Shown here in pieces: positions 10,883 through 29,733 of a stretch of 44,183 nt of DNA; the stretch's first letter is position 1; each line of letters opens with the position of its first letter. Both the position numbers and the translations under genes were made by a program. The stretch covers positions 1 to 44,183 of the forward strand of contig CAJXNO010000020.1 in the NCBI GenBank assembly GCA_913057205.1, read 5' to 3'. This DNA comes from an uncultured Flavobacteriales bacterium (lineage in GTDB: Bacteria; Bacteroidota; Bacteroidia; Flavobacteriales_G; Salibacteraceae). The notes beneath the pieces were generated by a model. It made no database searches and had not been told where the DNA came from. It worked only from the letters and a program-made list of their open reading frames with translations.

Positions 10883-11879
10883 GGTTTTCACTTGGGCGTG
10901 AGCGCGCGAAATTAGCAACTTGCTCCTTGTCATTAACCAAGACTTGAGAAAGAGGTTCGGTAGGAATCTTGATCGAATAAGCCGTGCCGGTATTGTTGTC
11001 GAGGTAATTGTCTCGCAGCCATGGGTTGAGGTACTTCAAGGTTTTGTAGTTGATGCCCTCTTGGAAGGCGAATACCACCCAATCGGCAACGCTGGTATCT
11101 ACCCGAAGGGTGTCAAATTTCAACGGACGATAAAGGTCTTCTTCCCGAAATTGAAAACCATAGGATTTCGGGTCGGTCAAGATGGTCTTTGCAGCCATGA
11201 TGCGAAAGATGTAGCGCGCTGTTTCTTCGTTCAACACGAGGTCATAGTAGTTGGTGGCCTGCTGTCGTTCCAGTTGCTTATCCAAACCAGCCATGCCCAT
11301 GTTGTAGGAGGCAGCTGCAAGCGTCCAACTGCCAAAGCGTTCTTTCGCTGACTTTAGGTAAGCACAAGCGGCGTAGGTCGATTTCTCTAGGTGGTAGCGT
11401 TCATCCACAACGCTGTTTACCTCTAGACCTCGTTCTTTCGCCGCATCTTTCATCAATTGCCAAAAGCCCGTAGCACCTGCAGGGGAGACGACGTTGGTCA
11501 GTCCGCTTTCGATCAATGCGAGGTACTTGAAATCGTCTGGAACACCTTCTTCTGCCAAGATCTTTTCAATGGTGGGAAACCAGCGGTAGCTGCGTTTGAT
11601 CAACAATAAGGTTTGGCTTTGCCAGTAGGTATTCACCAAGAGTTCACGATCGAACTTTTCCTTCACGTCGATCAAATTCATGGGCACTTCTTCACCGGCG
11701 AAGGACAGCTCTTCCGGGTGATTCAAGGCGAAGATCTTGTAGTTGTTCTGAAAGTTTTCTTCGAATTTCTCGTTTTCCTTTCCCTCGAAGGTAGAGGCGG
11801 TAAAGAGGGCTAGGGTAGCATAAGCTGCTACCAGTAAGGAAAGGGAAAGCAAGATCGAGGGTAAGAAGCGTTTGATCAT
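10848..11879 (-). CDS. Membrane-anchored lytic murein transglycosylase (MltD/Slt type)
   Basis: A 343-residue protein with an N-terminal membrane/signal segment (FLPSILLSLSLLVAAYATLALF) and a goose-type lysozyme-like SLT domain. The catalytic glutamate is E124 in LALIESGLTN, followed by the substrate groove motifs SPAGATGFWQLM and AAASYNMGMAG..YYDLVLNEETARYIFRI. It cleaves the MurNAc-GlcNAc bond in the periplasm, forming anhydro ends. There is no obvious LysM repeat; the C-terminus is charged (SENHEEGGEGHTVE). The ATG overlaps the stop of the upstream WecA-like gene by 4 bases (ATGA) and its 3' end overlaps uvrA by 35 bases, so these genes are probably translated from one message. Confidence 0.9.
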   Translation of the reverse strand: MIKRFLPSILLSLSLLVAAYATLALFTASTFEGKENEKFEENFQNNYKIFALNHPEELSFAGEEVPMNLIDVKEKFDRELLVNTYWQSQTLLLIKRSYRWFPTIEKILAEEGVPDDFKYLALIESGLTNVVSPAGATGFWQLMKDAAKERGLEVNSVVDERYHLEKSTYAACAYLKSAKERFGSWTLAAASYNMGMAGLDKQLERQQATNYYDLVLNEETARYIFRIMAAKTILTDPKSYGFQFREEDLYRPLKFDTLRVDTSVADWVVFAFQEGINYKTLKYLNPWLRDNYLDNNTGTAYSIKIPTEPLSQVLVNDKEQVANFARSRPSENHEEGGEGHTVE

Positions 11880-12976
11880 GAATGGGAGGGACTATGAAGT
11901 TGTTCGAATTTTTCGCGCGTTCGACGCCATTGCGTTGTGCTGTAGAGTCCAAGGATAACCAGGATGCCGTAGACGCTTTGTACAATGAAAAAGATATCGC
12001 GTTGGTCTTTTGAAACAGATGTGAGCATGCCGATCAGAAAGAGCAAGAGCAAGGAGATCGCGATCATGACAAAGGCCACCTGTCGGTCGCTTAGGCCGGC
12101 ATAGGAAAGGTGATGTGTGGTGTGATCCTTTCCTCCAACAAAGGGAGAAACGCCGCGTCGCAAACGGTTGATGGTCACGGGCATCGAGGCGGCTATGGGT
12201 ATCACAAAGGCGGTACCTACGATCACAAGCTTTGAGTACCAGCTGTGTTCTATGTCGATGTATCCATTGTTCCAGAAGAAGATGATCCCAACGGCAGAAA
12301 GCAATGCTCCGAGCATCTGGCTTCCGGTATCTCCCATGAAGATCTTTGATGGGTTCCAATTGAAGAACAGAAAACCGGTCAACGCCGCTACAACACCGCC
12401 GCAAATGAAACTGTAGAACAGGTTGCCACTGAAAAAGGGCTCTGATGCTACGGCCGCCATGATGAGGATGAAGATGCTGACAATGGTGGTGATGCCATCC
12501 ATATTGTCGGGCATATTGATGGCATTCATCACAGCCACGGTCCAGAAAATGGTAAGCAAGGCATCCGGGATGTATGACTCAAAGAATTCGATGCGGATAT
12601 CAAACAACAAGAGCAGCACACCGCAAATGATCTGAGCGGATAGTTTGAGCCAGGGTACGGTATTGAACGTATCGTCTGCCAACCCAACGAAGAAACCGAT
12701 GGTCACGGTGATCAAGATTCCTAGGTGAATGGCTTCTTCACTGGTCTTGAGGTCTGGGTTGTGAAAGAACAAGTACACCGCATAGCTGATGAGGAAGATG
12801 ATGTAGAAGCTGATGCCACCGATGGCAGGTTTGTAGCTAGCGCTCCAACGTACGCTTTCATCTGGAGCCAGATCTTTGGTGCCCAGTGTATGGGTCCACT
12901 TCAGGAAGATGTAATTTAAAAGCACACTAATGACCGTGAAGATGCTAAAGATCAAGGCCATCGTTGAGAACGTCAT
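11876..12976 (-). CDS. WecA/MraY-type polyprenyl-phosphate sugar-1-phosphate transferase
   Basis: A 366-residue multi-spanning inner-membrane enzyme of glycosyltransferase family 4 in the MraY/WecA superfamily. It moves a HexNAc-1-phosphate from a UDP sugar to undecaprenyl phosphate, the first step of many surface polysaccharides. Motifs are LADD (99-102), NMPDNMDGI (154-162) with the catalytic Asp pair, FMGDTGS (213-219) and the cytoplasmic His motif GKDHTTHHLSY near 285. About ten hydrophobic helices are visible. The context (rfbC, wzc, wza, glycosyltransferase) makes an initiating transferase for a capsule or exopolysaccharide likely. It overlaps the downstream transglycosylase by 4 bases. 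Sugar specificity is not readable. Confidence 0.9.
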   Translation of the reverse strand: MTFSTMALIFSIFTVISVLLNYIFLKWTHTLGTKDLAPDESVRWSASYKPAIGGISFYIIFLISYAVYLFFHNPDLKTSEEAIHLGILITVTIGFFVGLADDTFNTVPWLKLSAQIICGVLLLLFDIRIEFFESYIPDALLTIFWTVAVMNAINMPDNMDGITTIVSIFILIMAAVASEPFFSGNLFYSFICGGVVAALTGFLFFNWNPSKIFMGDTGSQMLGALLSAVGIIFFWNNGYIDIEHSWYSKLVIVGTAFVIPIAASMPVTINRLRRGVSPFVGGKDHTTHHLSYAGLSDRQVAFVMIAISLLLLFLIGMLTSVSKDQRDIFFIVQSVYGILVILGLYSTTQWRRTREKFEQLHSPSHS

Positions 12977-13055: not shown

Positions 13056-13598
13056 TTAGAAAGGAGAGGTGAAATCCGCTAGCGCTGGGTGTTTTGTGTC
13101 CTTATTAGAAAGAAAGGGGTCCTTGATTGGCCAATCTATTCCAATGGTAGCATCGTTCCATTTTACACCGATCTCATGGTCGGGTGCGTAGTAGTCGCTG
13201 CACTTGTATTGTACAATGGTTTGATCTTCCAAACAACAGAATCCATGTCCAAAACCTTCAGGGATGAACAGCATCGATTTGTTCTCTGCTGTGAGGTCTA
13301 TTCCGAAGTATTGGCCGTAAGTAGGGGAGTCTTTGCGCAGATCAACAGCTACATCATAAATGCTGCCTTGTACCACACGCAGCAGTTTTGCTTGTGCCTT
13401 GGGGGGCGCTTGAAGGTGGAGTCCGCGGAGCACTCCTCGGTTGCTCATGGACTCATTGTCTTGAACAAAGCGCAGGTTAATACCACGTTCTTCCAAGATG
13501 CTTAATCGAAAGCTCTCGAAAAAATAGCCACGGTCGTCTGAGAAAATCTTTGGCTGAATGATCAGCAGGCCTTGGATCGGGGTTTCTTGTACGGTCAT
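13056..13598 (-). CDS. rfbC: dTDP-4-dehydrorhamnose 3,5-epimerase
   Basis: A 180-residue RmlC-type cupin. It epimerises dTDP-4-keto-6-deoxyglucose at C3 and C5 on the way to dTDP-L-rhamnose. Recognisable motifs are FSDDRGYFFESF (19-30), the catalytic His in RGLHLQ (His61), the KLLRVVQGSIYDVAVDLR core strand and the YKCSDYYAP motif (131-139). Length is normal. The other dTDP-rhamnose genes (rmlA, rmlB, rmlD) are not in this window. The ATG at 13596-13598 overlaps, as ATGA, the TGA that ends the restored wzc frame at 13595-13597, which shows that the wzc tail was once translated up to this gene. Confidence 0.93.
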   Translation of the reverse strand: MTVQETPIQGLLIIQPKIFSDDRGYFFESFRLSILEERGINLRFVQDNESMSNRGVLRGLHLQAPPKAQAKLLRVVQGSIYDVAVDLRKDSPTYGQYFGIDLTAENKSMLFIPEGFGHGFCCLEDQTIVQYKCSDYYAPDHEIGVKWNDATIGIDWPIKDPFLSNKDTKHPALADFTSPF

Positions 13599-13744
13599 TT
13601 GGATTTGGAATGCTTGCGCAAATTTGAAAGAATTCCTGAATCCTCGTCGTCTTCTTCGGTATAATAACCACTACCTGATGAGGTGTAGCCGTATCCGTAA
13701 CCATATCCGTAGCCATACCCGTACCCGTAACCATAGTTGTACCC

Positions 13745-14689
13745 TTAACCTTTGCCGTAGTTTCTGCCATAGCGTGCACGGTCTAGGTTTATACCGTTCA
13801 ATACCACCGAAAGGTGTTTGATCTTGTGCTCTTGGTAGATGCGATTTACGTTGTATACGAAGTTCTTCTTTGAATATTCACTGCGGAAAACCAAGATCGG
13901 ATAATCCGCCAGTTTAAGACTTGAGATACCATCGGTCACCAGTCCAACAGGAGGGTTGTCGATGATGATCACGTTGTACATCTCCTTAAGGGTCTTCAGG
14001 TTTTCTTGCAAGCGACCGTTGATGATCAATTCACTCGGATTGGGTGGAACAGGACCTGCCGTAATGAAGTGGAGTCCGTCTAATTCACTTTTTCGGATGA
14101 TGTCGTTGAGGTCGTCGCGACCACTCCAAAGCGTACTGATTCCGTACTCATTGGAACTATTGAATCCTTTGTAGATCCGCGGCTTACGCATGTCGAGGTC
14201 AAGGATGATTACCTTCTTACCACCGAAGGCGATGATGCCGCCAAGGTTGATGGCCACGAAAGTCGTACCCTCACCACTGATGGTAGAGGTTACTGCAATC
14301 ACTTTTTTGTAGCTTTCGCTATCAAAAAAATCGAGGTTGGTACGCAAACTCCTGAACGCCTCGGCCATGATCGATTTCGGGTACTTGTCGATGATGAGCT
14401 TCGAAAGGGGGATGTTCTTGCTGTACTTAGGAATCACTCCGAGCAGACTGATGCTTGGATTTATCAACCGTGCGAGGTCGCTCACATCGCCGATTTCGTT
14501 GTGAAGGATGTAGTGCGCAGCGACGATCAGCAAACTGATGAAAATGGCGATGGAGAAAGCCGAGAGGTAGATGATCGTACGGTTGGGCGATACGGGCTGG
14601 TTAGGTATGGTGGCGCGTTGAAGAATGCGAGTGTCAGAAACGAACCCCGCTTCGGAGATGGCGTATTCTGTGCGCTTCTCTAAGAGCAT
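13745..14689 (-). CDS. wzc: wzc fragment 3: BY-kinase domain
   Basis: This 314-residue fragment has the second membrane helix (IIYLSAFSIAIFISLLIVAAHYI) and the cytoplasmic kinase. The Walker A segment reads ISGEGTTF, where canonical BY-kinases have GEGKT; the Thr codon is ACG at 14264-14266. Walker A' is VIILDLDMRKPRI and Walker B is NVIIIDNPP. The frame ends RYGRNYGKG at TAA 13745-13747, just before the Tyr-Gly cluster that is the autophosphorylation site in this family. Confidence 0.8.
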   Translation of the reverse strand: MLLEKRTEYAISEAGFVSDTRILQRATIPNQPVSPNRTIIYLSAFSIAIFISLLIVAAHYILHNEIGDVSDLARLINPSISLLGVIPKYSKNIPLSKLIIDKYPKSIMAEAFRSLRTNLDFFDSESYKKVIAVTSTISGEGTTFVAINLGGIIAFGGKKVIILDLDMRKPRIYKGFNSSNEYGISTLWSGRDDLNDIIRKSELDGLHFITAGPVPPNPSELIINGRLQENLKTLKEMYNVIIIDNPPVGLVTDGISSLKLADYPILVFRSEYSKKNFVYNVNRIYQEHKIKHLSVVLNGINLDRARYGRNYGKG

Positions 14690-15125
14690 GGTGTAGTATT
14701 TCTCGTTGGAGTTGTAAACACGCTCTAATCGACATATTCAATCTCCTGAGACGGAAAATCTGTGAAGTTGGCATCGATCTCTTGGATCTTTTGAGCGGTA
14801 GCATCGATGGCATTGGTGAGCTTTTGCTCTGTTGCATCCAAGCTGCGAAGGATGAGGTCTTCTGATTTTCAATCTGTCGATCCAGTAACACGATCACCAG
14901 GTTTTCGCTGGTAGCAGTGGTGAGTTGGTTGTTCCTTCGCTGTACAAGGTCTTGCAATGCGATGATTTGCTTCTCCAACTTGAACTCGAAAACTGATCCA
15001 GCAAGTATCGGCAGCAGTTTATTGATGACGACACCAGTGTTCTCAAGGTCGATGTTCCGCTTGACTTCGCGCAGGATGCCACGCTGAACTTCCAACTTCG
15101 CCAGCTCTTCTTCTAGGTCGTTCAT
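14634..15125 (-). CDS. wzc: wzc fragment 2: periplasmic coiled-coil part
   Basis: Residues MNDLEEELAKLEVQRGIL to LDRQIENQ are genuine Wzc coiled coil. After the base loss near 14861 the fragment leaves frame and its Ser/Met/Arg-rich end has no relation to the family. The true continuation (..IQEIDANFTDFPSQEIEYV) lies in another frame until the third shift near 14732. Confidence 0.7.
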   Translation of the reverse strand: MNDLEEELAKLEVQRGILREVKRNIDLENTGVVINKLLPILAGSVFEFKLEKQIIALQDLVQRRNNQLTTATSENLVIVLLDRQIENQKTSSFAAWMQQSKSSPMPSMLPLKRSKRSMPTSQIFRLRRLNMSIRACLQLQREILHHALREAHRIRHLRSGVRF

Positions 15126-16024
15126 GCGATCCAGGTAGCCTTGAGCGATCTTGTCGCTTTCAGCCGAGCGATTGTCTTTCTTGTATTCTTTGATACGACC
15201 TCCGAGTCTTTCAATCGGCCGTAAACTTCAGATAGCTGACTATCGATGAACTCTTCGGTGATTCTGTCAGCGATCGTGGAAGCCTTTAATCGATTGGTGT
15301 TCTTCACCGTTACCCGCGCGGTTTTCGCAGAACAATTCAAGAGCTTCACCCGGTAGTTGGGGTAAAGCCGGCGCAGGTTATTGAAGTCAGATTTGATCAT
15401 GAAAAAGGACCGGTAATCCTCTTCTGGGTCTTGGTCTAAGGTAGACTGAATGCTGCGGTCCTCGATCATGTAGACCATGTGCGGTGTCTCTACGGTATCA
15501 TTCACTTGGAAATCTGAGGTGAATTCACTGCCGTTCAAAGCATAGGTGATCGTGCCATGCTGTGCATCCTCAAAGTCGATGTAGATTCGTTTATCGTACA
15601 GGTCTGCGTTCAACAGTCTGAATTTCACCTCGTAAGGCGCGTTGCGGAAATGCTCGTGGGTGAGTACCTCGCCCTCATTGTAGTAGCTGTCATACAGCTC
15701 CAACGACTCGATCACACGCTTAAAGAACTCTTCCGAACGGAGCAGTTCTATCTGCTTTGAAATGTCTTGCGATTCATAGATGTTCTCTACATCCAGCAAG
15801 CGATTGGCCTTGTCATCGGTTATGATCTGAATGATCGTTGATGACTCATAAACCGGTTGCGTGAAGTACAAGTAGGTATAGGCGCCACCAAAAGCCAGAG
15901 CAAAAACCAAAAGCATCCAAAGCAAGGACTTCCGAATGGCAACGGTGAGTAGACCCAGATCGAAATCCACGCGGCCGTCTTCATTGCCCATCAGCCTGCC
16001 CGCTGATGGAACTTCTTCTTCCAT
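15122..16024 (-). CDS. wzc: wzc fragment 1: Wzz-like N-terminal part
   Basis: This 300-residue fragment holds the Wzz domain: a cytoplasmic start (MEEEVPSAG), first membrane helix LLWMLLVFALAFGGAYTYLYF, then YESSTIIQIITDD and a long periplasmic region. It starts 2 bases after the exporter gene. The last ~30 residues (VVSKNTRKTIARLKATRSLKATWIA) are out of frame, produced by the base loss near 15201. The apparent ATGA junction with the next ORF is an artefact of that shift. Confidence 0.75.
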   Translation of the reverse strand: MEEEVPSAGRLMGNEDGRVDFDLGLLTVAIRKSLLWMLLVFALAFGGAYTYLYFTQPVYESSTIIQIITDDKANRLLDVENIYESQDISKQIELLRSEEFFKRVIESLELYDSYYNEGEVLTHEHFRNAPYEVKFRLLNADLYDKRIYIDFEDAQHGTITYALNGSEFTSDFQVNDTVETPHMVYMIEDRSIQSTLDQDPEEDYRSFFMIKSDFNNLRRLYPNYRVKLLNCSAKTARVTVKNTNRLKASTIADRITEEFIDSQLSEVYGRLKDSEVVSKNTRKTIARLKATRSLKATWIA

Positions 16025-16026
16025 GC

Positions 16027-16824
16027 TTATCCGCCAGTCGTGTTCTGAAACTGAACGATCAAGAAATAGGTGAGGATCAAAGAAGATACTACGCCCAAGA
16101 CCTGTGAAGTGGTCTGGAGGATCTGTCGACCAGCGAAATACGACGGTTCAACGTAGATGATGTCGTTGGCCCGCACATAATAAAGGTTCGCATCTTTCAA
16201 TCCTTGCGCTGTTGAGAGGTCCAGTTTGAAGATCTGTGGATCGTTGAGATCGCCTCGTACTACCTTGATCTTGTGTGCTTTACCGCCCGTGGAGAGTCCA
16301 CCCGCCAAAGCCAACGCTTCGATCACGGTGGTGTATTCGTTCTGGATTGGAATCACCCTGGCTGCACCTCCGGTACCTGGAAAGACCACCACGCGGCGAT
16401 TGTTCACCTGGAGCATGACAAAAGGCTCATTGTAATAGTTGCTGTACTTGTCTTCCAAATAGGTCTCTGTCGCTTTGAGGTTCATCCCCGCCACTTTCAT
16501 TCGACCGATGATCGGTAAGTTGATGGAGCTGTCTGCCTCGATCAGGTAGGTGAAGCTGTTCTGCGCATTCAGTGCGATGTTGTTGCGTGCACCTTCGTCG
16601 ATCGAGGTAAGGTCGATGATCTTGAAACCCTGGTTGGAGAACAAGCGAAAGTTGATGATGTCTCCAGGTTGCAGGATGTAGTCGTGTGCCGTCGTATCTG
16701 TGGCCTCGGCGTAGGGATACTTTCCCTTTGTACGCAACATGACACTGGGGTCAAAGATTCGGCAACTGCTCAGAAAGCTCGCAACTACCAAGAGAAGGAT
16801 AAGCGATCGGTATGGTCTTAACAT
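16027..16824 (-). CDS. wza: Polysaccharide export lipoprotein (Wza/BexD-like)
   Basis: An outer-membrane polysaccharide export protein. From the ATG at 16824 it has 265 residues and a clean lipoprotein signal (MLRPYRSLILLLVVASFLSSC, Cys21). The poly-export domain begins YILQPGDIINFRLFSNQG, followed by two SLBB-like segments (INLPIIGRMKVAGMNLKATETYLEDKY; GAARVIPIQNEYTTVIEALALAGG) and VRANDIIYVEPS. A hydrophobic helix ends the protein (VLGVVSSLILTYFLIVQF), as in many Bacteroidota versions. An alternative ATG at 16875 adds 17 residues and overlaps the preceding stop as ATGA; that could be the real start through coupling, but the signal peptide favours 16824. wzc follows after 2 bases. Confidence 0.88.
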   Translation of the reverse strand: MLRPYRSLILLLVVASFLSSCRIFDPSVMLRTKGKYPYAEATDTTAHDYILQPGDIINFRLFSNQGFKIIDLTSIDEGARNNIALNAQNSFTYLIEADSSINLPIIGRMKVAGMNLKATETYLEDKYSNYYNEPFVMLQVNNRRVVVFPGTGGAARVIPIQNEYTTVIEALALAGGLSTGGKAHKIKVVRGDLNDPQIFKLDLSTAQGLKDANLYYVRANDIIYVEPSYFAGRQILQTTSQVLGVVSSLILTYFLIVQFQNTTGG

Positions 16825-16871
16825 ATTTGAAAGCACTTTGAAATACAAAGTAAATGATTTTTGTTGCAAGT

Positions 16872-18080
16872 TCATAGGTTTTTTTCTTTCAACAGCTTGA
16901 GGTAGAGCGATTGCATGTCGTCTACTAATCGTTTATAGGAAAAGGATTGATTCACATGCGCTCGTCCAACCTTACCCATGGCGGAGCGCTTCTCAGGTTG
17001 ACCGATCAAGCGGTCCAAATGATCATTGAACACCGCCTGGGCATTTACATCGCACAGGAAGGCAGATCCATTTTCTACCACCATGTCCTCAATGCCTCCT
17101 ACGCGGGTGCTTACAATGGGTTTTGCTGCACTCTGGGCATCGATCATGCTCACTGGGGTGCCCTCGTTCAACGAGGTTAGGGCAACGATGTCCAGTCCGG
17201 CCATCACATCGTCTACCTCTTTGATCCATGATGTAAAACAGAGGGGGCGTAACTCAGAAGGGGCCGTCTTCCACTCGAAGAGGATCTTTGCCTTATCGCA
17301 GTAATGCAGCAGGTCCTGTCTCGACTCCCCATCGCCGATCACAAAGAAGCGTGCGTTTGGGTGCTTTTTCGATAGGGCTTTCACCGCATCCAAGAACATG
17401 TGATGGCGCTTGATCGGTACCAGCCTACCCACAATGCCGATGGCTACATCATCCTTCCTGAGGTTGAAACGGGTTCGAAACCGGTTGCGTTTTTCGGCCT
17501 GATCCACATTGAAGCGTTCCAAGTCAAACCCCAACGGAACTACCTCAACGTGCTTCTTCGGCGCGATCTTATGGACCTCACTCAATTCATACTTCTGAAT
17601 AGCACTGATCGCGATTATACGTGTAGACCGCTTTGCCAACCATTGTTCGATGTTCTTGTAGAACAATGTCTTCAGCTTTCCAAAGTAGGAGTGAAATACG
17701 TGACCGTGAAAGGTGTGCAGCACGATCGGCACGCCCTCATGGATGGCGGCAAGTCTGCCCAAAGCACCAGCCTTGGATGCATGCGTATGCACAATGTGTG
17801 GTTTGAAGGCCTTGATCTGGGCCCGTATTTCTCGGTAAGCACGCAGGTCGCGCATCGGAGAAACAGAGCGTTGCATTTTCGCAACCACTACGGGTTCAAT
17901 CCCTAGGTTTTCCAAGATGAACAATGACGATGCCTCCGAGGCGTCTTTCATACCACCTACCAATCGCGTCTCGAAACGCTCGTCCATGTACGCCGTGAGG
18001 TAGGCCACGTTGAAGGTTGGTCCTCCCAAATTAAAGCGGTTGATGATGCGCAATACCCGTATCTTCTCTCCCTTCTCCAT
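16872..18080 (-). CDS. Glycosyltransferase family 1/4 (GT-B fold)
   Basis: A 402-residue retaining GT-B glycosyltransferase from the ATG at 18080 (MEKGEKIRVLRIINRFNLGGP), chosen because it lies 5 bases after the asnB stop; a start at 18131 would sit inside asnB. The N-terminal acceptor domain has HIVHTHASKAGALGRLAA and HTFHGHVFHSYF. The C-terminal donor domain has IGIVGRLVPIKRHHMFLDAV, FVIGDGESRQDL and the catalytic Glu region TSLNEGTPVSMIDAQSAAKPIVSTRVGG. It probably adds a sugar in assembly of the exopolysaccharide exported by the adjacent Wza/Wzc system. Donor and acceptor cannot be deduced. Confidence 0.9.
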   Translation of the reverse strand: MEKGEKIRVLRIINRFNLGGPTFNVAYLTAYMDERFETRLVGGMKDASEASSLFILENLGIEPVVVAKMQRSVSPMRDLRAYREIRAQIKAFKPHIVHTHASKAGALGRLAAIHEGVPIVLHTFHGHVFHSYFGKLKTLFYKNIEQWLAKRSTRIIAISAIQKYELSEVHKIAPKKHVEVVPLGFDLERFNVDQAEKRNRFRTRFNLRKDDVAIGIVGRLVPIKRHHMFLDAVKALSKKHPNARFFVIGDGESRQDLLHYCDKAKILFEWKTAPSELRPLCFTSWIKEVDDVMAGLDIVALTSLNEGTPVSMIDAQSAAKPIVSTRVGGIEDMVVENGSAFLCDVNAQAVFNDHLDRLIGQPEKRSAMGKVGRAHVNQSFSYKRLVDDMQSLYLKLLKEKNL

Positions 18081-18085
18081 CGTGC

Positions 18086-20014
18086 TTACATGTGTTGCTT
18101 GTACCAGTGTTGAAAGGCCAACAGCGACCAAGCATTCGCAGCGCTGTCGCCCGGATTATTCGAATACAACTTCTTCTTCAATTCATCGATCGCAAAGGCA
18201 TTGAAAAGACCTTGTTCTTGGAGGAAGTCCTTGTCCGCACAGAGCGACTCAAACCGTTCTTTCATCGGACCCTTGAACCACGTGAGTAAAGGCACCTCGA
18301 AGCCTTTTTTCGGACGATCAAAGACACTGCTTGGTAGCAGATCCCGGTAGGTATCTTGTAAGATCTTCTTCTTGGTGAAGGAGTTTACCTTGAACATCAC
18401 CGGCAGACGAAAAGCATGCTGTACCACGAAATGATCGAGCAGGGGAGTGCGGACCTCTAATGCTGACATCATGCTGGTCATATCGACCTTGTAGAGCATG
18501 TCATTGGAGAGCACCATTTGCATGTCGCTCAGCAAAACTTCGTTGAAGGTGCCGTTCTTCTTGATGCTCCGGAGCAGGTGGTCTTTTCGCTTCTTATAGA
18601 CGTGTGCTTCGTCTGAGAGGCGTTGGGTTCGCGGCAACACCTCCTCTTTGATGAGGAAGTTCACCTCCTCTTCCGTCAACATGCCCGCCCAGCGCCAATA
18701 GCGGTCTCTCGGGTTGAGTTGATATCCGTAGCTGAACTTTTGCAATTGCCGGGCAAGGTTTCCCATCCTGCTGTTTCGGGATGCCGGCATCCGATTCCAA
18801 AGCCATCCAAGCTTTCCGATGCTGTGTTCCATCAACTTCGGGTTTCGTAGCCTGAATTCGGCTCCGTGCTTGTGATACCCGCCGAACAACTCATCGCCCC
18901 CATCGCCGCTCAGGGCTACGGTCACGTGCTTTTTAGCATAACGAGAAAGCAAGTACATATTCAACGCTGAAGCATCGGCAAAGGGCTCGTCCATATGATC
19001 AAGAACGGCACTGGCCGACTCCAATAGATCGCTATCGCGCACGTCTAACAGGTGATGCTTGATACCGAGGTGTTTGGCCACTTCCTTCGCGTATCCGCTC
19101 TCATCGTAGTAGGGCTGATCGGGAAACCCGATGCTGAAGGCTTCAATGTCTGGTTTCTCTTCTGCCGCGATGGCGGTGATGATGCTCGAGTCAATGCCTC
19201 CACTCAGAAAGGTGCCCACCGGTACATCTGCGATCAAGCGTTGTTTGATCGAGGCGCGGACGAATCGTTTCAGTACCTTCTGTGCTTCCTTGTAATCGTG
19301 GGCCACGAGCTTTTTCTCTCCCTCGGGCTCGTAAGGAATCTGGTACCAACGCTCCTGTTGTACATCCAGTTTTCCGTCTTTCCATTGCACCATCAGGGAG
19401 CATCCTTGCTCAAGTTTGTAGTGATCCTTTAGGATGGTACTGGGTGCAGGAATGTAGTTGAACTTGAAATAGGTGAAGAGTGAAACCTTATCGATCTCTC
19501 GTTGATATCCCAATGAATGTAAGGCCTTGAGCTCGCTTGAAAAAGCAAAGGTGTCCTCCGTTAAACGGTAGACCAAAGGCTTAATACCAAATCGGTCACG
19601 GGCTACGAACAGACGCTCTTCTTCACGGTCCCACACCGCAAAGGCGAAGAACCCGTTAAGCTTGGACAAGCAAGCTGCACCTTGTTGCATGTACAAGGCC
19701 AAGAGGACTTCCGTATCGCTCGTGGTGTTGAATGAGTATCCGCCTTGTTCGGCTTCTTGCCGCAATGCAGCGTGGTTGTAGATCTCTCCGTTGAAAATGA
19801 TCGCAAAACGTCCTGATGGATCGCTCATCGGTTGGTGTGATCGCGCGTCGAGGTCGATGATGGAGAGGCGGGTATGACCGATGGCCACAGGTGGGGTAAT
19901 CATCACCGCTTGGTGGTCTGGTCCACGATGATCAAGCTGATGCACGGCGTTCTCAAAGCGATCAAACGCCTTGCTACTAGGGTGTAGGTCTACGAGTCCG
20001 AGGATTCCGCACAT
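18086..20014 (-). CDS. asnB: Glutamine-hydrolysing asparagine synthetase
   Basis: A 642-residue class II glutamine amidotransferase plus synthetase. Cys2 (MCGILGLVD) is the nucleophile for glutamine hydrolysis. The N-terminal domain continues with HRGPDH, RLSIIDL, FNGEIYN and SDTEVLL; the PP-loop ATP site is SGGIDSS at 271-277, followed by ALSGDGGDELFGGY. Homologues inside polysaccharide clusters often amidate sugar acids or peptides rather than free aspartate, so its location between a sugar-transfer gene and an arsenosugar-type gene leaves the true acceptor open. It starts 18 bases after the TIGR04282 gene stop and ends 5 bases before the next gene. Confidence 0.93.
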   Translation of the reverse strand: MCGILGLVDLHPSSKAFDRFENAVHQLDHRGPDHQAVMITPPVAIGHTRLSIIDLDARSHQPMSDPSGRFAIIFNGEIYNHAALRQEAEQGGYSFNTTSDTEVLLALYMQQGAACLSKLNGFFAFAVWDREEERLFVARDRFGIKPLVYRLTEDTFAFSSELKALHSLGYQREIDKVSLFTYFKFNYIPAPSTILKDHYKLEQGCSLMVQWKDGKLDVQQERWYQIPYEPEGEKKLVAHDYKEAQKVLKRFVRASIKQRLIADVPVGTFLSGGIDSSIITAIAAEEKPDIEAFSIGFPDQPYYDESGYAKEVAKHLGIKHHLLDVRDSDLLESASAVLDHMDEPFADASALNMYLLSRYAKKHVTVALSGDGGDELFGGYHKHGAEFRLRNPKLMEHSIGKLGWLWNRMPASRNSRMGNLARQLQKFSYGYQLNPRDRYWRWAGMLTEEEVNFLIKEEVLPRTQRLSDEAHVYKKRKDHLLRSIKKNGTFNEVLLSDMQMVLSNDMLYKVDMTSMMSALEVRTPLLDHFVVQHAFRLPVMFKVNSFTKKKILQDTYRDLLPSSVFDRPKKGFEVPLLTWFKGPMKERFESLCADKDFLQEQGLFNAFAIDELKKKLYSNNPGDSAANAWSLLAFQHWYKQHM

Positions 20015-20032
20015 GCCTACAAAAAAGCAGAA

Positions 20033-20656
20033 TTAAAACCAGTCTTCTGACTTCTGTTCCGGGAACTTATCAAGACCATCTAGGTCTTCGATTGTATCGA
20101 TATCGTTCAGGGTCTTAAGCAAGTAGTACTTGGCATCCATCTTCTTCAGGTCTAAAATGGTGTCCATCAGTACATCCGGTGTGCTCCAGGTCTTGTCTTC
20201 AAAGAGGGTCGGTAAGAATTTGCGCATGCCGATCAGGTAGTAGCCACCATCTTTCGCGGGACCCAAGACCACATCATTACTTTCTAAAACGGCAAAAGCT
20301 TCTTTGATCATGTAGGTCTCCAATTCAATGCAATCACTGCCGATTATGATCGCCCGCTGCTTCCCTGCCGCGAAGGCTTCCGCAAAGGCGTTTTGCATTC
20401 GCTCTCCGACATCTTCACCTTGTTGCAGGTGCTTGTCAAAGACCATGTTATCCCACAGGTCATTATTGTTGACGTTTTCCGAGTAGTAGACGCATTTATC
20501 GGCGTTCAAACCCTTGGTCACCTCACGGGTATACAGGAGCATCTTGCGATAGAGCGCGGTTGCTTGCTCGTCGCCAATCGCTTTTGCGAGGCGCGTTTTG
20601 ACCTTTCCCTTTTCGGGGTTTCGGACAAAGATGATGAGTCGATCGTTTTCCGTCAC
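20033..20656 (-). CDS. TIGR04282 / DUF2064 family glycosyltransferase (arsenosugar-associated)
   Basis: A 207-residue single-domain GT-A-like protein. It begins LIIFVRNPEKGKVKTRLAKAIGD, the signature of the DUF2064 family; later motifs are GEDVGERMQNAFAEAF, AIIIGSDCIEL and VVLGPAKDGGYYLIGM. In the TIGRFAM scheme members next to the ArsS radical SAM protein are called arsenosugar biosynthesis glycosyltransferases. It follows arsS by 9 bases, so both are probably on one transcript. The assignment to arsenic metabolism depends on that context; the chemistry of this protein is not proven to my knowledge. Confidence 0.82.
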   Translation of the reverse strand: MTENDRLIIFVRNPEKGKVKTRLAKAIGDEQATALYRKMLLYTREVTKGLNADKCVYYSENVNNNDLWDNMVFDKHLQQGEDVGERMQNAFAEAFAAGKQRAIIIGSDCIELETYMIKEAFAVLESNDVVLGPAKDGGYYLIGMRKFLPTLFEDKTWSTPDVLMDTILDLKKMDAKYYLLKTLNDIDTIEDLDGLDKFPEQKSEDWF

Positions 20657-26517: not shown

Positions 26518-27051
26518 ATGACATTTAAGCGATTATTCAATCACGCCATGTCGTTCTTCATTCATGGGTACTTGCTGCGTAAGCTCTATTTCACGCAGCG
26601 TGCTGACATGAATGCACTTTCAGAAGCGATGCTGGCCTTCGCGTTGGTTTGGTTGGTCATGTCGATGGTCCTTTTCTTTTTCAAGATCCAATGTCGGGTG
26701 CCTTATCCTGAGCTTTTCGTTCGGATGCGCTCATTTGAGCAATTATCCATTTACAGAAGCATCGGTGTGCCGGTATACCGATGGCTCTTGTTACATAGTC
26801 CATTCCGTTTTGCCAATACGTCCATTTACCTGAAAGAAAAAAGAGGAAAGGCCGCGCTCATGCAATTGCATACCAAGATCCTTGAAGCAGAGTGGGCGCA
26901 CATCATCAACATCGTTCTGATACTCATTGCTATGCTGTTCTACGCTGAGATCCGCTGGTGGTTGTTGTTGTGGAATATGGTCTTTAACGTTTATCCCGTC
27001 TTCTTGCAGCGGTATAATCGGTTGCGCATCAGTCGGATATATACTATTTAG
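26518..27051 (+). CDS. CrtO-like integral membrane acyltransferase family protein
   Basis: A 177-residue membrane protein with two strong hydrophobic regions (SEAMLAFALVWLVMSMVLFFF and INIVLILIAMLFYAEIRWWLLLW). The segment QLSIYRSIGVPVYRWLLLHSPFRFAN, the AEWAH segment and the ending QRYNRLRIS resemble the CrtO-type acyltransferase family, whose staphylococcal founder acylates a glycosylated carotenoid and shares AE..H and QRYNR. No other carotenoid gene is nearby, so the acceptor is unknown and could be another glycolipid. ATG at 26518. It lies 22 bases before the paralogous lipoprotein gene. Confidence 0.6.
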   Translation: MTFKRLFNHAMSFFIHGYLLRKLYFTQRADMNALSEAMLAFALVWLVMSMVLFFFKIQCRVPYPELFVRMRSFEQLSIYRSIGVPVYRWLLLHSPFRFANTSIYLKEKRGKAALMQLHTKILEAEWAHIINIVLILIAMLFYAEIRWWLLLWNMVFNVYPVFLQRYNRLRISRIYTI

Positions 27052-27073
27052 CGTACAATACCGTTGTTTGTCC

Positions 27074-28369
27074 ATGCGAAACCTATTCATGCTATCCAGC
27101 CTCTTGCTGCTTCTTGCTTGCCAAGGCTGTCAGGAGCTCACCCAATCACAGGAGCTTACCCGTACGTTCACCTGCTTTGATGATTACGATCGAATCGATA
27201 TTACTTTGATCGATGAGTCAACCGGTGCGGAGCAGGAATTAATTCCTAGTCCAGCTGGCGTTGTTGATTTCGGTACGCTGAATTTTGGGCATTATGCCGT
27301 CGACATTACTGCCTGGTCTGCAGCGATGGACGAACCCCTTATTCGGCTTCGTCGCTCCTTCTCCGTTCCGATTGATCGTGGTGAAGCGTTGTTGAACTTG
27401 CCTTCTCCTGGACAACTCGTGCGTGCGGTGGGGTCGAATAAGGAATTCCAGCGCTTTGTTGAACTTGAATTGGCGTTTCCGTGTGCCGAAACCGATTGGC
27501 GTTGGTATCACATCGCTAACCATCCGGATTCTGTTTATGTCACCACTACATCTACCCCTTTTGAAGGGAACACGTTGGCGTTGGGTCGTCCGAATTATGA
27601 GCCGTTCTACTTAGGATTAGAAGCATGGACCGATCAAGATGGAAGTGGACGCAGTTTCAGTACACGCTCGGAGGTGATCGAGGTCATTCCGGTGGAGCAA
27701 AACATCGTAGAGTTTCCTTTCAACGTGCTGTTCAACTTTACCATAGACGCTGCGGAAGTACGTTATTTCGCCGTGGAACTTCCAGAGGACAACCTGTACC
27801 GCATCGATTATTTCGACCGTCATAACGGTGATTACGAGGCCGATCAGATCGTATTTTTTGCCCAAGGAGGTTTCGGCGAAGCAAGAAGTGCACCTCCAAG
27901 GGGATATGGAAGGATATTCAATGCTGACGCGGGATTACTTGACCTTAAAGCAGCCGTTGCGGTGCCGGGAACAGGAGGTTCATCCGCGGTAAAGGTCTAT
28001 CCAGCGGTTCCGGACGTAGTTCATGACTTTTCACCTCAGATGACCGTTGCTCTGGACGAACATAATACCCTGCATCACATTCGAACTCAGTTGGATGAAG
28101 GAAGCTATGTTTTCCGAATCACTCCAGCAGCATTTAACCCTGAGATGCCGGTCTATGCTTGGCTCCGTGCGGAGCATCCATTGGTCAATGAGGGCAACAG
28201 CCACTTTGATTTTGGTCGAATCGGTCCGGAATACAACGACGATGACCGTCCCCACACCCGAATCTTTTCAATTACCCAAGCAGGCTATTTTGATATTTAT
28301 CTCCTCACCGGATACAACGGAAGCCCAACAAGTTGTACGTTAGTGTTGAATGATACGGTATTGAATTGA
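27074..28369 (+). CDS. Large lipoprotein, paralogue 1 of a tandem pair
   Basis: A 431-residue predicted lipoprotein from ATG 27074 (longer readings have no signal). The signal is MRNLFMLSSLLLLLAC, with Cys16 or Cys19 as lipidation site. Visible parts are an Ig-like N-terminal sandwich (TFTCFDDYDRIDITLIDE.. VDFGTLNFGHYAVDITAW), a middle part (WYHIANHPDS..PFEGN..PFYLGLEAWTD) and two similar C-terminal beta domains, one with VRYFAVELPEDNLYRIDYFDRH and GYGRIFNAD, the last with YFDIYLLTGYNG. The two C-terminal parts recall pre-peptidase C-terminal (PPC) domains, an inference. A paralogue follows 77 bases downstream. Function unknown. Confidence 0.75.
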   Translation: MRNLFMLSSLLLLLACQGCQELTQSQELTRTFTCFDDYDRIDITLIDESTGAEQELIPSPAGVVDFGTLNFGHYAVDITAWSAAMDEPLIRLRRSFSVPIDRGEALLNLPSPGQLVRAVGSNKEFQRFVELELAFPCAETDWRWYHIANHPDSVYVTTTSTPFEGNTLALGRPNYEPFYLGLEAWTDQDGSGRSFSTRSEVIEVIPVEQNIVEFPFNVLFNFTIDAAEVRYFAVELPEDNLYRIDYFDRHNGDYEADQIVFFAQGGFGEARSAPPRGYGRIFNADAGLLDLKAAVAVPGTGGSSAVKVYPAVPDVVHDFSPQMTVALDEHNTLHHIRTQLDEGSYVFRITPAAFNPEMPVYAWLRAEHPLVNEGNSHFDFGRIGPEYNDDDRPHTRIFSITQAGYFDIYLLTGYNGSPTSCTLVLNDTVLN

Positions 28370-28446
28370 TCGATTCCTCCCAACACTCAGAGGAGTTCGT
28401 TCGTCTTTCGCATAGATAATTTGCTCACCATACGATGATTACTCCT

Positions 28447-28911
28447 ATGAAGCGTTTCCAGCCCGTTTTGCTATCCACCGTTCTGTTGATCGGGGTACTT
28501 TCCTTCTCTGCCTGTCGCTTAGAAGAAACCCAATCCATTTCCATTCCTATTTCGTGTTACAACGATTACGATGAGGTGGAAATTCAACTGACCAACTTAG
28601 ATAACAACGAGGTCCGCGAGCTTGAAGTGAGAAACGGCGTCGTTGACTTCGGTGAATTGGTAAGCGGGAGGTATGAGGTTAACTTGCGTGCATGGCAGGA
28701 TGGCTATGAGTCGGAACGGGTTCGTTTTCACAACAGGTTCAACGTGCCCAATCAAATACCTTCAAGTATTCTGTCGGTTCCTAGGCCTGGAATCATCAAC
28801 AACACAGATTACAGTGTCCAGAATTTCAGAGGCTGGGTCAACCTCGACATGACATTCGATTGTGAACAGCAGCCGGATGTCTTCCAATGGTATCATATCT
28901 CCATCGATTAA
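28447..28911 (+). CDS. Lipoprotein paralogue 2, N-terminal fragment
   Basis: A 154-residue fragment holding the lipoprotein signal (MKRFQPVLLSTVLLIGVLSFSAC), the Ig-like domain (ISCYNDYDEVEIQLTN.. GVVDFGELVSGRYEVNLRAW) and the start of the middle part, ending WYHISID. If translated alone it would be a small surface or periplasmic lipoprotein. Confidence 0.6.
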   Translation: MKRFQPVLLSTVLLIGVLSFSACRLEETQSISIPISCYNDYDEVEIQLTNLDNNEVRELEVRNGVVDFGELVSGRYEVNLRAWQDGYESERVRFHNRFNVPNQIPSSILSVPRPGIINNTDYSVQNFRGWVNLDMTFDCEQQPDVFQWYHISID

Positions 28912-28917
28912 AGCAAA

Positions 28918-29733
28918 GTGTTCACTGAAACAGAGGGTCTTCCATTTGAGGGCAATCAGCTAAGCTTTGAACCGGAATTTGCACAGCCTTTTTACATCGG
29001 TTTTGAGCGCTGGACCGACAATGAGGAGCGCGGCTACACAACCTATTCAGAGGTGATGCTGGTAGACCTGAACAACGGTAATCACCAGAATATTGAACTG
29101 GGCGAGCTGATTGAGTTTGAAATCTTAGAATCCAGTAACATGTACTTCAGCACTCTGATAGAAACTGGAGAGGTGTACAAAGTAGATTTCTATGATCGAG
29201 GCAACAGCAACTATACGGCGGATGCCATTGTCTTTGGCGCGAAGGACTATTTCTCGGAGGGGAGAACGAGTTCACCGCACGGACGCGGTCGAATTTTTCA
29301 AGCGATTGATGAAACCTTGAACCTGCAAGCAGCTCGTGCATTGGAGGGTGCATTTGGCTCCAGCGCCTTGAGCGTATCACCGGTGGAGTCGGCCATTCCC
29401 CTGACTTTTTCAGACTCCATGGACTTCACCTTATCAACCAAGAACACCACTTACGTGGTTGAGACCTACTTGAACCCGGGCATTTACACCTTTCACGCAA
29501 CGCATGATGGCTACAACCCGGAAACGGCTGTAGCTGCCACAATCGTCTTTGAGCATCCACTGGAAAGCGTGGTAGGGGGTAGCTTGATCAACATCGGACC
29601 CGTGGGTAGCTTTGACCCTTACACGGAGACCAGAAAGTTTGCTGTGAACCAGGCAGGCACGATGAAGATCTACTTGCTAACGGGTTACCACGGCGGAGTA
29701 GCGGATTACTCGTGTTCGCTTAGAGCTGATTGA
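28918..29733 (+). CDS. Lipoprotein paralogue 2, C-terminal fragment
   Basis: A 271-residue remainder that would have to start at a GTG six bases after the TAA. It lacks a signal peptide, so independent export is unlikely. It carries PFEGNQLSF, FYIGFERWTD, the PPC-like domain (YKVDFYDRGNSNYTADAIVFGAK) and the IYLLTGYHG ending, all matching paralogue 1. Confidence 0.5.
   Translation: MFTETEGLPFEGNQLSFEPEFAQPFYIGFERWTDNEERGYTTYSEVMLVDLNNGNHQNIELGELIEFEILESSNMYFSTLIETGEVYKVDFYDRGNSNYTADAIVFGAKDYFSEGRTSSPHGRGRIFQAIDETLNLQAARALEGAFGSSALSVSPVESAIPLTFSDSMDFTLSTKNTTYVVETYLNPGIYTFHATHDGYNPETAVAATIVFEHPLESVVGGSLINIGPVGSFDPYTETRKFAVNQAGTMKIYLLTGYHGGVADYSCSLRAD

Follow-up and report, generated by a model that had tools for sequence, protein, structure and literature searches.

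We herein report that the wzc gene of an uncultured member of the Salibacteraceae is probably a genuine and fairly recent pseudogene. Five lesions were found in it: three frame breaks, one stop and one changed catalytic residue. The genome analysed (G000) is a 2.83-Mb draft of 68 contigs with a computed completeness of 99.94%, and the window, i.e., the whole 44,183-nucleotide stretch of DNA under study, is its contig C20. The gene lies in a minus-strand operon comprising a radical-SAM gene, a DUF2064 gene, an asnB-like gene, a glycosyltransferase gene, wza, wzc, an rfbC-like gene, a wecA-like gene, a lytic-transglycosylase-like gene and uvrA, where asnB, rfbC, uvrA and transglycosylase are used as labels. 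The sequence-only reading of this DNA had proposed frame changes near 15201, 14861 and 14732 in an otherwise intact operon, and both points agree with our results: translations and tblastn place the breaks at about 15200, 14856-14862 and 14731-14737, and each of the nine other operon genes tested is one open frame in tblastn comparisons with relatives. As an account of the damage that reading was nevertheless incomplete, having missed the in-frame TAA at 13745-13747 and the Walker A threonine. The core order wecA-rfbC-wzc-wza-glycosyltransferase-asnB is kept, within the reach of the contigs, in 11 congeners and four further family members, the sole exception being G011, which has no wzc; the twelfth congener, G002, offers only a 3.5-kb contig at the operon locus.

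Table 1. Features of the wzc locus (window positions)
Feature	Positions	Strand	Evidence
Intact genes of the operon: glycosyltransferase, asnB-like amidotransferase (name presumed), DUF2064	16872..20656	-	
wza (OPX, outer-membrane export), intact	16027..16875	-	PF02563 50.8 bits
wzc piece 1: Wzz domain at the N terminus plus the first membrane helix	15122..16024	-	PF02706 50.8 bits; one hydrophobic helix; frame -2 match to relatives
Frame break 1 (approximate)	15196..15204	-	nearby runs of at most 3
wzc piece 2: periplasmic part, frame -1	14856..15194	-	57-60% identity to G006, G007, G009
Frame break 2 (approximate)	14856..14862	-	longest nearby run is 4
wzc piece 3, frame -3	14734..14856	-	39-66% identity to relatives matching there
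Frame break 3 (approximate)	14731..14737	-	no run of 3 or more nearby
wzc piece 4: GNVR end, second membrane helix, tyrosine-kinase domain, frame -2	13745..14734	-	PF13614 42.6 bits; PF13807 30.5 bits
Walker A lysine codon replaced by threonine (GEGTT for GEGKT)	14264..14266	-	aligned with a lysine of CapB
In-frame TAA ahead of the tyrosine-rich tail	13745..13747	-	frame translation, alignment
Tyrosine-rich tail, recognisable yet downstream of the TAA	13598..13744	-	frame translation, alignment
rfbC-like epimerase, intact; start overlaps the former wzc stop	13056..13598	-	open frame; name presumed
wecA-like initiating sugar-phosphate transferase, open in G000	11876..12976	-	PF00953 95.7 bits

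Frame translations and tblastn with intact relatives resolve Wzc into four collinear pieces in frames -2, -1, -3 and -2. The first departs from the conserved sequence near 15200 and runs into a stop at 15122, while the last scores 150.4 bits against TIGR01007, above the cut-off, and shares about 70% identity with the nearest relatives. Together the three shifts restore the starting frame, but four stops lie between them, hence read-through is impossible. The Walker A lysine is kept in all 27 of the relatives' loci that match the motif pattern (29 were examined, two having no match to the search pattern), whereas G000 carries threonine. Orthologues of the Wzc/PCP-2a tyrosine kinase type (PDB 7nhr, 9i2q) share the Wzz and GNVR domains, two membrane helices, a kinase domain and a tyrosine-rich tail, and the C-terminal piece of G000 matches Wzc and CapB chains. 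The Wzz domain at the N terminus and the GNVR and kinase (AAA_31) domains were all found in G000; in contrast to the PCP-2a kinases, there is no continuous frame, no Walker A lysine and, with the tail encoded behind the stop, no tyrosine-rich tail in the product. The gene thus stands at the same position as its intact orthologues and carries several disabling lesions.

The sequence-only reading had left the choice between loss of the kinase step and poor sequencing. Our analyses favour loss, on the strength of the stop, the changed catalytic residue, breaks away from runs, a low background of frame changes and lesions in sister species, and we consider it unlikely that an assembly or sequencing error local to wzc, such as a low-coverage patch or a mixed-strain consensus, hides a gene that is intact in the cells. 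Such an error would suit a contig from a 68-piece draft that is probably a metagenome-assembled genome; noise is plain in some related drafts (G010 has four of its nine matched operon genes split), and the kinase residues of G000 are mostly still conserved. Against it speak the clean neighbouring genes and the scarcity of frame changes elsewhere. In a census comparing 464 kb of G000 with ORFs from 1.64 Mb of the relatives G009 and G006 (matches at least 45% identical and covering at least 60% of the query, thresholds at which badly decayed genes would be missed), frame changes appeared in only two of the 141 genes checked (167 kb), three in wzc and two in a PD40/OmpA-type gene on contig C8; inner stops numbered nine in the C8 pair to which that gene belongs and one each in two other genes. 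A looser census made before it covered 85 genes and counted four frame changes, wzc accounting for three, as well as 23 stops; the stops fell mostly at the edges of alignments, within the C8 pair or in ORFs unlikely to be genes. Hence, the checked sequence of G000 is low in indels, and other pseudogenes are present in the genome. Outside wzc, about 164.5 kb contained two frame changes, which share a single other pseudogene; at that rate a length of 2.4 kb should hold 0.03, and the probability of three or more is about 4e-6, a figure that ignores that wzc was picked as broken-looking.

The positions of the breaks bear on the same question. None of them falls in a run longer than four bases, and the runs of five, six and seven bases that wzc itself contains are undamaged; thus, the pattern is unlike that of homopolymer errors. 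We therefore rejected both long-read homopolymer error as the main cause and phase variation via a homopolymer, since there is no tract above four bases at any wzc break. Moreover, a local indel problem leaves the stop and the catalytic substitution to be accounted for, as well as the lesions of wzc or wecA in sister species. Some observations tell against decay. Intact Wzc orthologues share 56-70% identity over the whole protein, a range that includes the value for the kinase piece of G000, and codon positions in wzc gave no clear relaxed pattern, with saturated distances and overlapping figures from intact genes. The codon-position counts and the private changes are both uninformative, since even the closest relative of G000 shares no more than 75% amino-acid identity with it. 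At invariant columns, nine of 113 are changed in the wzc kinase compared with 21 of 700 across seven other genes (Fisher p = 0.026), and G000 has the most private changes at invariant kinase columns among 14 rows; since G015, whose gene is open, comes close (7/111), we count this excess as weak.

Further disruptions were seen in the genome. On contig C8 (L063 6598-10742), two adjacent PD40/OmpA-type genes that are open in G009 are clear pseudogenes, with nine inner stops and two frame changes. Within the window, a lipoprotein-like gene (28435-29733) has an in-frame TAA at 28909-28911; its halves share one frame, and the second half is 38% identical to the upstream neighbour (26927-28369).

It is very improbable that wzc now works as two parts, with a PCP devoid of kinase in the N-terminal piece and a stand-alone pseudokinase scaffold in the C-terminal ORF (13745-14689), in the manner of EpsV/EcpK or HfsA/HfsB. 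Such pairs are described in excerpts of PMC12004946, and the C-terminal piece, which has a starting ATG and a membrane helix, resembles their kinase-like domains, which lack catalytic residues or tail, in having a domain devoid of the Walker A lysine and of the tail. Those partners are, however, whole genes paired with a PCP according to the same excerpts, whereas wzc of G000 is fragmented: its two inner pieces are out of frame, hence the second helix and some of the periplasmic domain are missing from the N-terminal piece. The C-terminal piece retains part of GNVR instead of forming a clean domain, its ATG corresponds to an internal position occupied by M or L in relatives, and none of the relatives examined shows the break pattern; a conserved ORF accompanied by an intact PCP was not found. 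Programmed frameshifting that joins the pieces is scarcely credible, even though they follow one another collinearly and the frame is recovered after the third shift, given three events at unlike sites with no long run, the additional stop and lost catalytic lysine, and the single frame of most orthologues.

A genuine pseudogene in G000 accords with what we found in the sister species, where a Wzc kinase is present in 11 of the 12 congeners and absent from G011. In the latter (L053 10841-12394), only the start of wzc followed by the tyrosine-rich tail lies between wza and rfbC, both of which are open; separately from this loss, about 390 inner bases of wecA, roughly a third of the gene, are gone, leaving a 75-base match to the wecA start, a protein match from residue 164 and a frame change near the end. 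In G007, wzc is broken at about 10376 of L034 by a gap of one base in comparison with the near relative G009; the wzc of G009 is intact, and the two proteins are 97% identical over the longer piece. In G003, wecA contains an in-frame stop (L037 8460-8462). In G011, G007 and G003 alike, the remaining operon genes that were tested have open frames. Ten operon genes were surveyed in 11 of the 12 congeners. Four genomes were set aside: G010 as noisy, its frame changes falling in wzc, wza, the glycosyltransferase gene and asnB; G005 because it holds four Ns, its asnB and the tail of its wzc showing frame changes; G008 because it holds 300 Ns, gaps occurring in both wzc and asnB; and G002 as cut by a contig end. 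Stop marks recorded for G015 and G008 lie outside the listed ORFs. In the nine genomes kept (G000, G001, G003, G004, G006, G007, G009, G011 and G012, the last covering six of the ten genes), every lesion is in wzc or wecA. These two genes make up 27% of the ten-gene length, so that chance would give this outcome with a probability of about 0.005 for four genomes, or 0.019 without G000, in a test that was made after seeing the data, that depends on the rows set aside and for which G000 had been picked for its lesion. In a tree built from seven operon genes of 16 genomes, without G002, G000, G007 and G011 stand on separate branches, with a support of only 93/94 for the placement of G000; for both G007 and G011, an intact wzc occurs in a nearer relative. 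If the sequences are right, wzc would have suffered two or more separate hits, probably three, and some close relatives seem to have undergone such gene loss independently. The best reading of these data is that the export kinase and the initiating transferase of the operon have been lost repeatedly in the genus.

No replacement for the kinase was detected in G000. The check for a second wzc that the sequence-only reading had suggested came out negative there: a search with the kinase piece returned one match, and of the three TIGR01007 matches only wzc itself exceeds the cut-off. A second, distant Wzc occurs in five congeners (G004, G005, G006, G007 and G009); none was detected in G000 or G011. 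The CpsB-type phosphatase family has one match each in G000 and G011, and is present in 11 of 13 genomes overall. In G000 and likewise in G011, no Poly_export protein other than Wza was found. In G011, Wza shows 15 private changes in 270 columns, compared with 23 in G003 and 13 in G006; being not relaxed-looking, it fits either retained function or a recent deletion. That Wza is kept after the loss of wzc in G000 and G011 would mean a recent loss or a role of Wza in another system. Contig C3 (L048 6890-10883) encodes, in a row, a Wzx, a 338-aa kinase-less Wzz that is 78-90% identical in 11 of the 12 congeners, and a Wzy-like ligase; a second short Wzz-like protein is encoded on C17, and an N-terminal query against genome contigs found no relative. 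The C3 Wzz has the size of an O-antigen chain-length regulator, a protein that is not known to need Wza. This Wzz is a possible, though weak, candidate partner of Wza. We also considered that, throughout the genus, selection may have acted recurrently against the phospho-regulated Wzc/WecA branch while Wza, as the sole outer-membrane export protein left, was kept and taken over by a tyrosine-kinase-free system, perhaps with the C3 Wzz, and we regard this as improbable. If true, such a takeover of Wza would mean that export evolved from control by phosphorylation to a kinase-free mode.

K540 of E. coli Wzc is, as we take it, the Walker A lysine. According to PMC11986026, K540M serves as an inactive kinase, kinase-null mutants have drastically reduced capsule, and phosphorylation of the tail takes Wzc in and out of an octamer, a cycle that regulates polymerisation and export. 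For wzc of G000 as a pseudogene, we propose that at least one inactivating mutation would have abolished the PCP-2a tyrosine autokinase, after which further single-base losses, the nonsense change and the loss of the Walker A lysine would have accumulated without selection. The Wzy-dependent polymer that needs Wzc would probably no longer reach normal length or be exported, with the rest of the operon kept for now; most likely, the polymer of this operon is either not made or not exported without Wzc. The order of these events, like the loss of the polymer and the freedom of the sequence from error, is something that we infer. The sequence-only reading had spoken of capsule export, and while the loss of the kinase stands, "capsule" is an assumption about the polymer.

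The loss of wzc is a known and ordinary kind of gene loss; what is of interest is its repetition in the genus. Literature searches aimed at this group or its relatives yielded nothing on it, and further searches returned related studies on Klebsiella, Acinetobacter and Myxococcus, among others. In excerpts of one study on Klebsiella (PMC8259999), capsule-locus pseudogenes concern mostly the first steps and rarely wzc, wzx or wzy. The likeness lies in scattered inactivation within otherwise intact loci, with the initiating transferase among the targets; in contrast to the predominance of the first step in those excerpts, wzc is affected here in three genomes and wecA in two. The wzc of G000 offers a well-bounded case of the loss of an export kinase in a lineage of the Flavobacteriales, with apparent parallel losses in sister species. 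It raises the questions of what selects against the polymer, be it phage, predators, cost or drift, and of what role the retained Wza may have in cells without Wzc.
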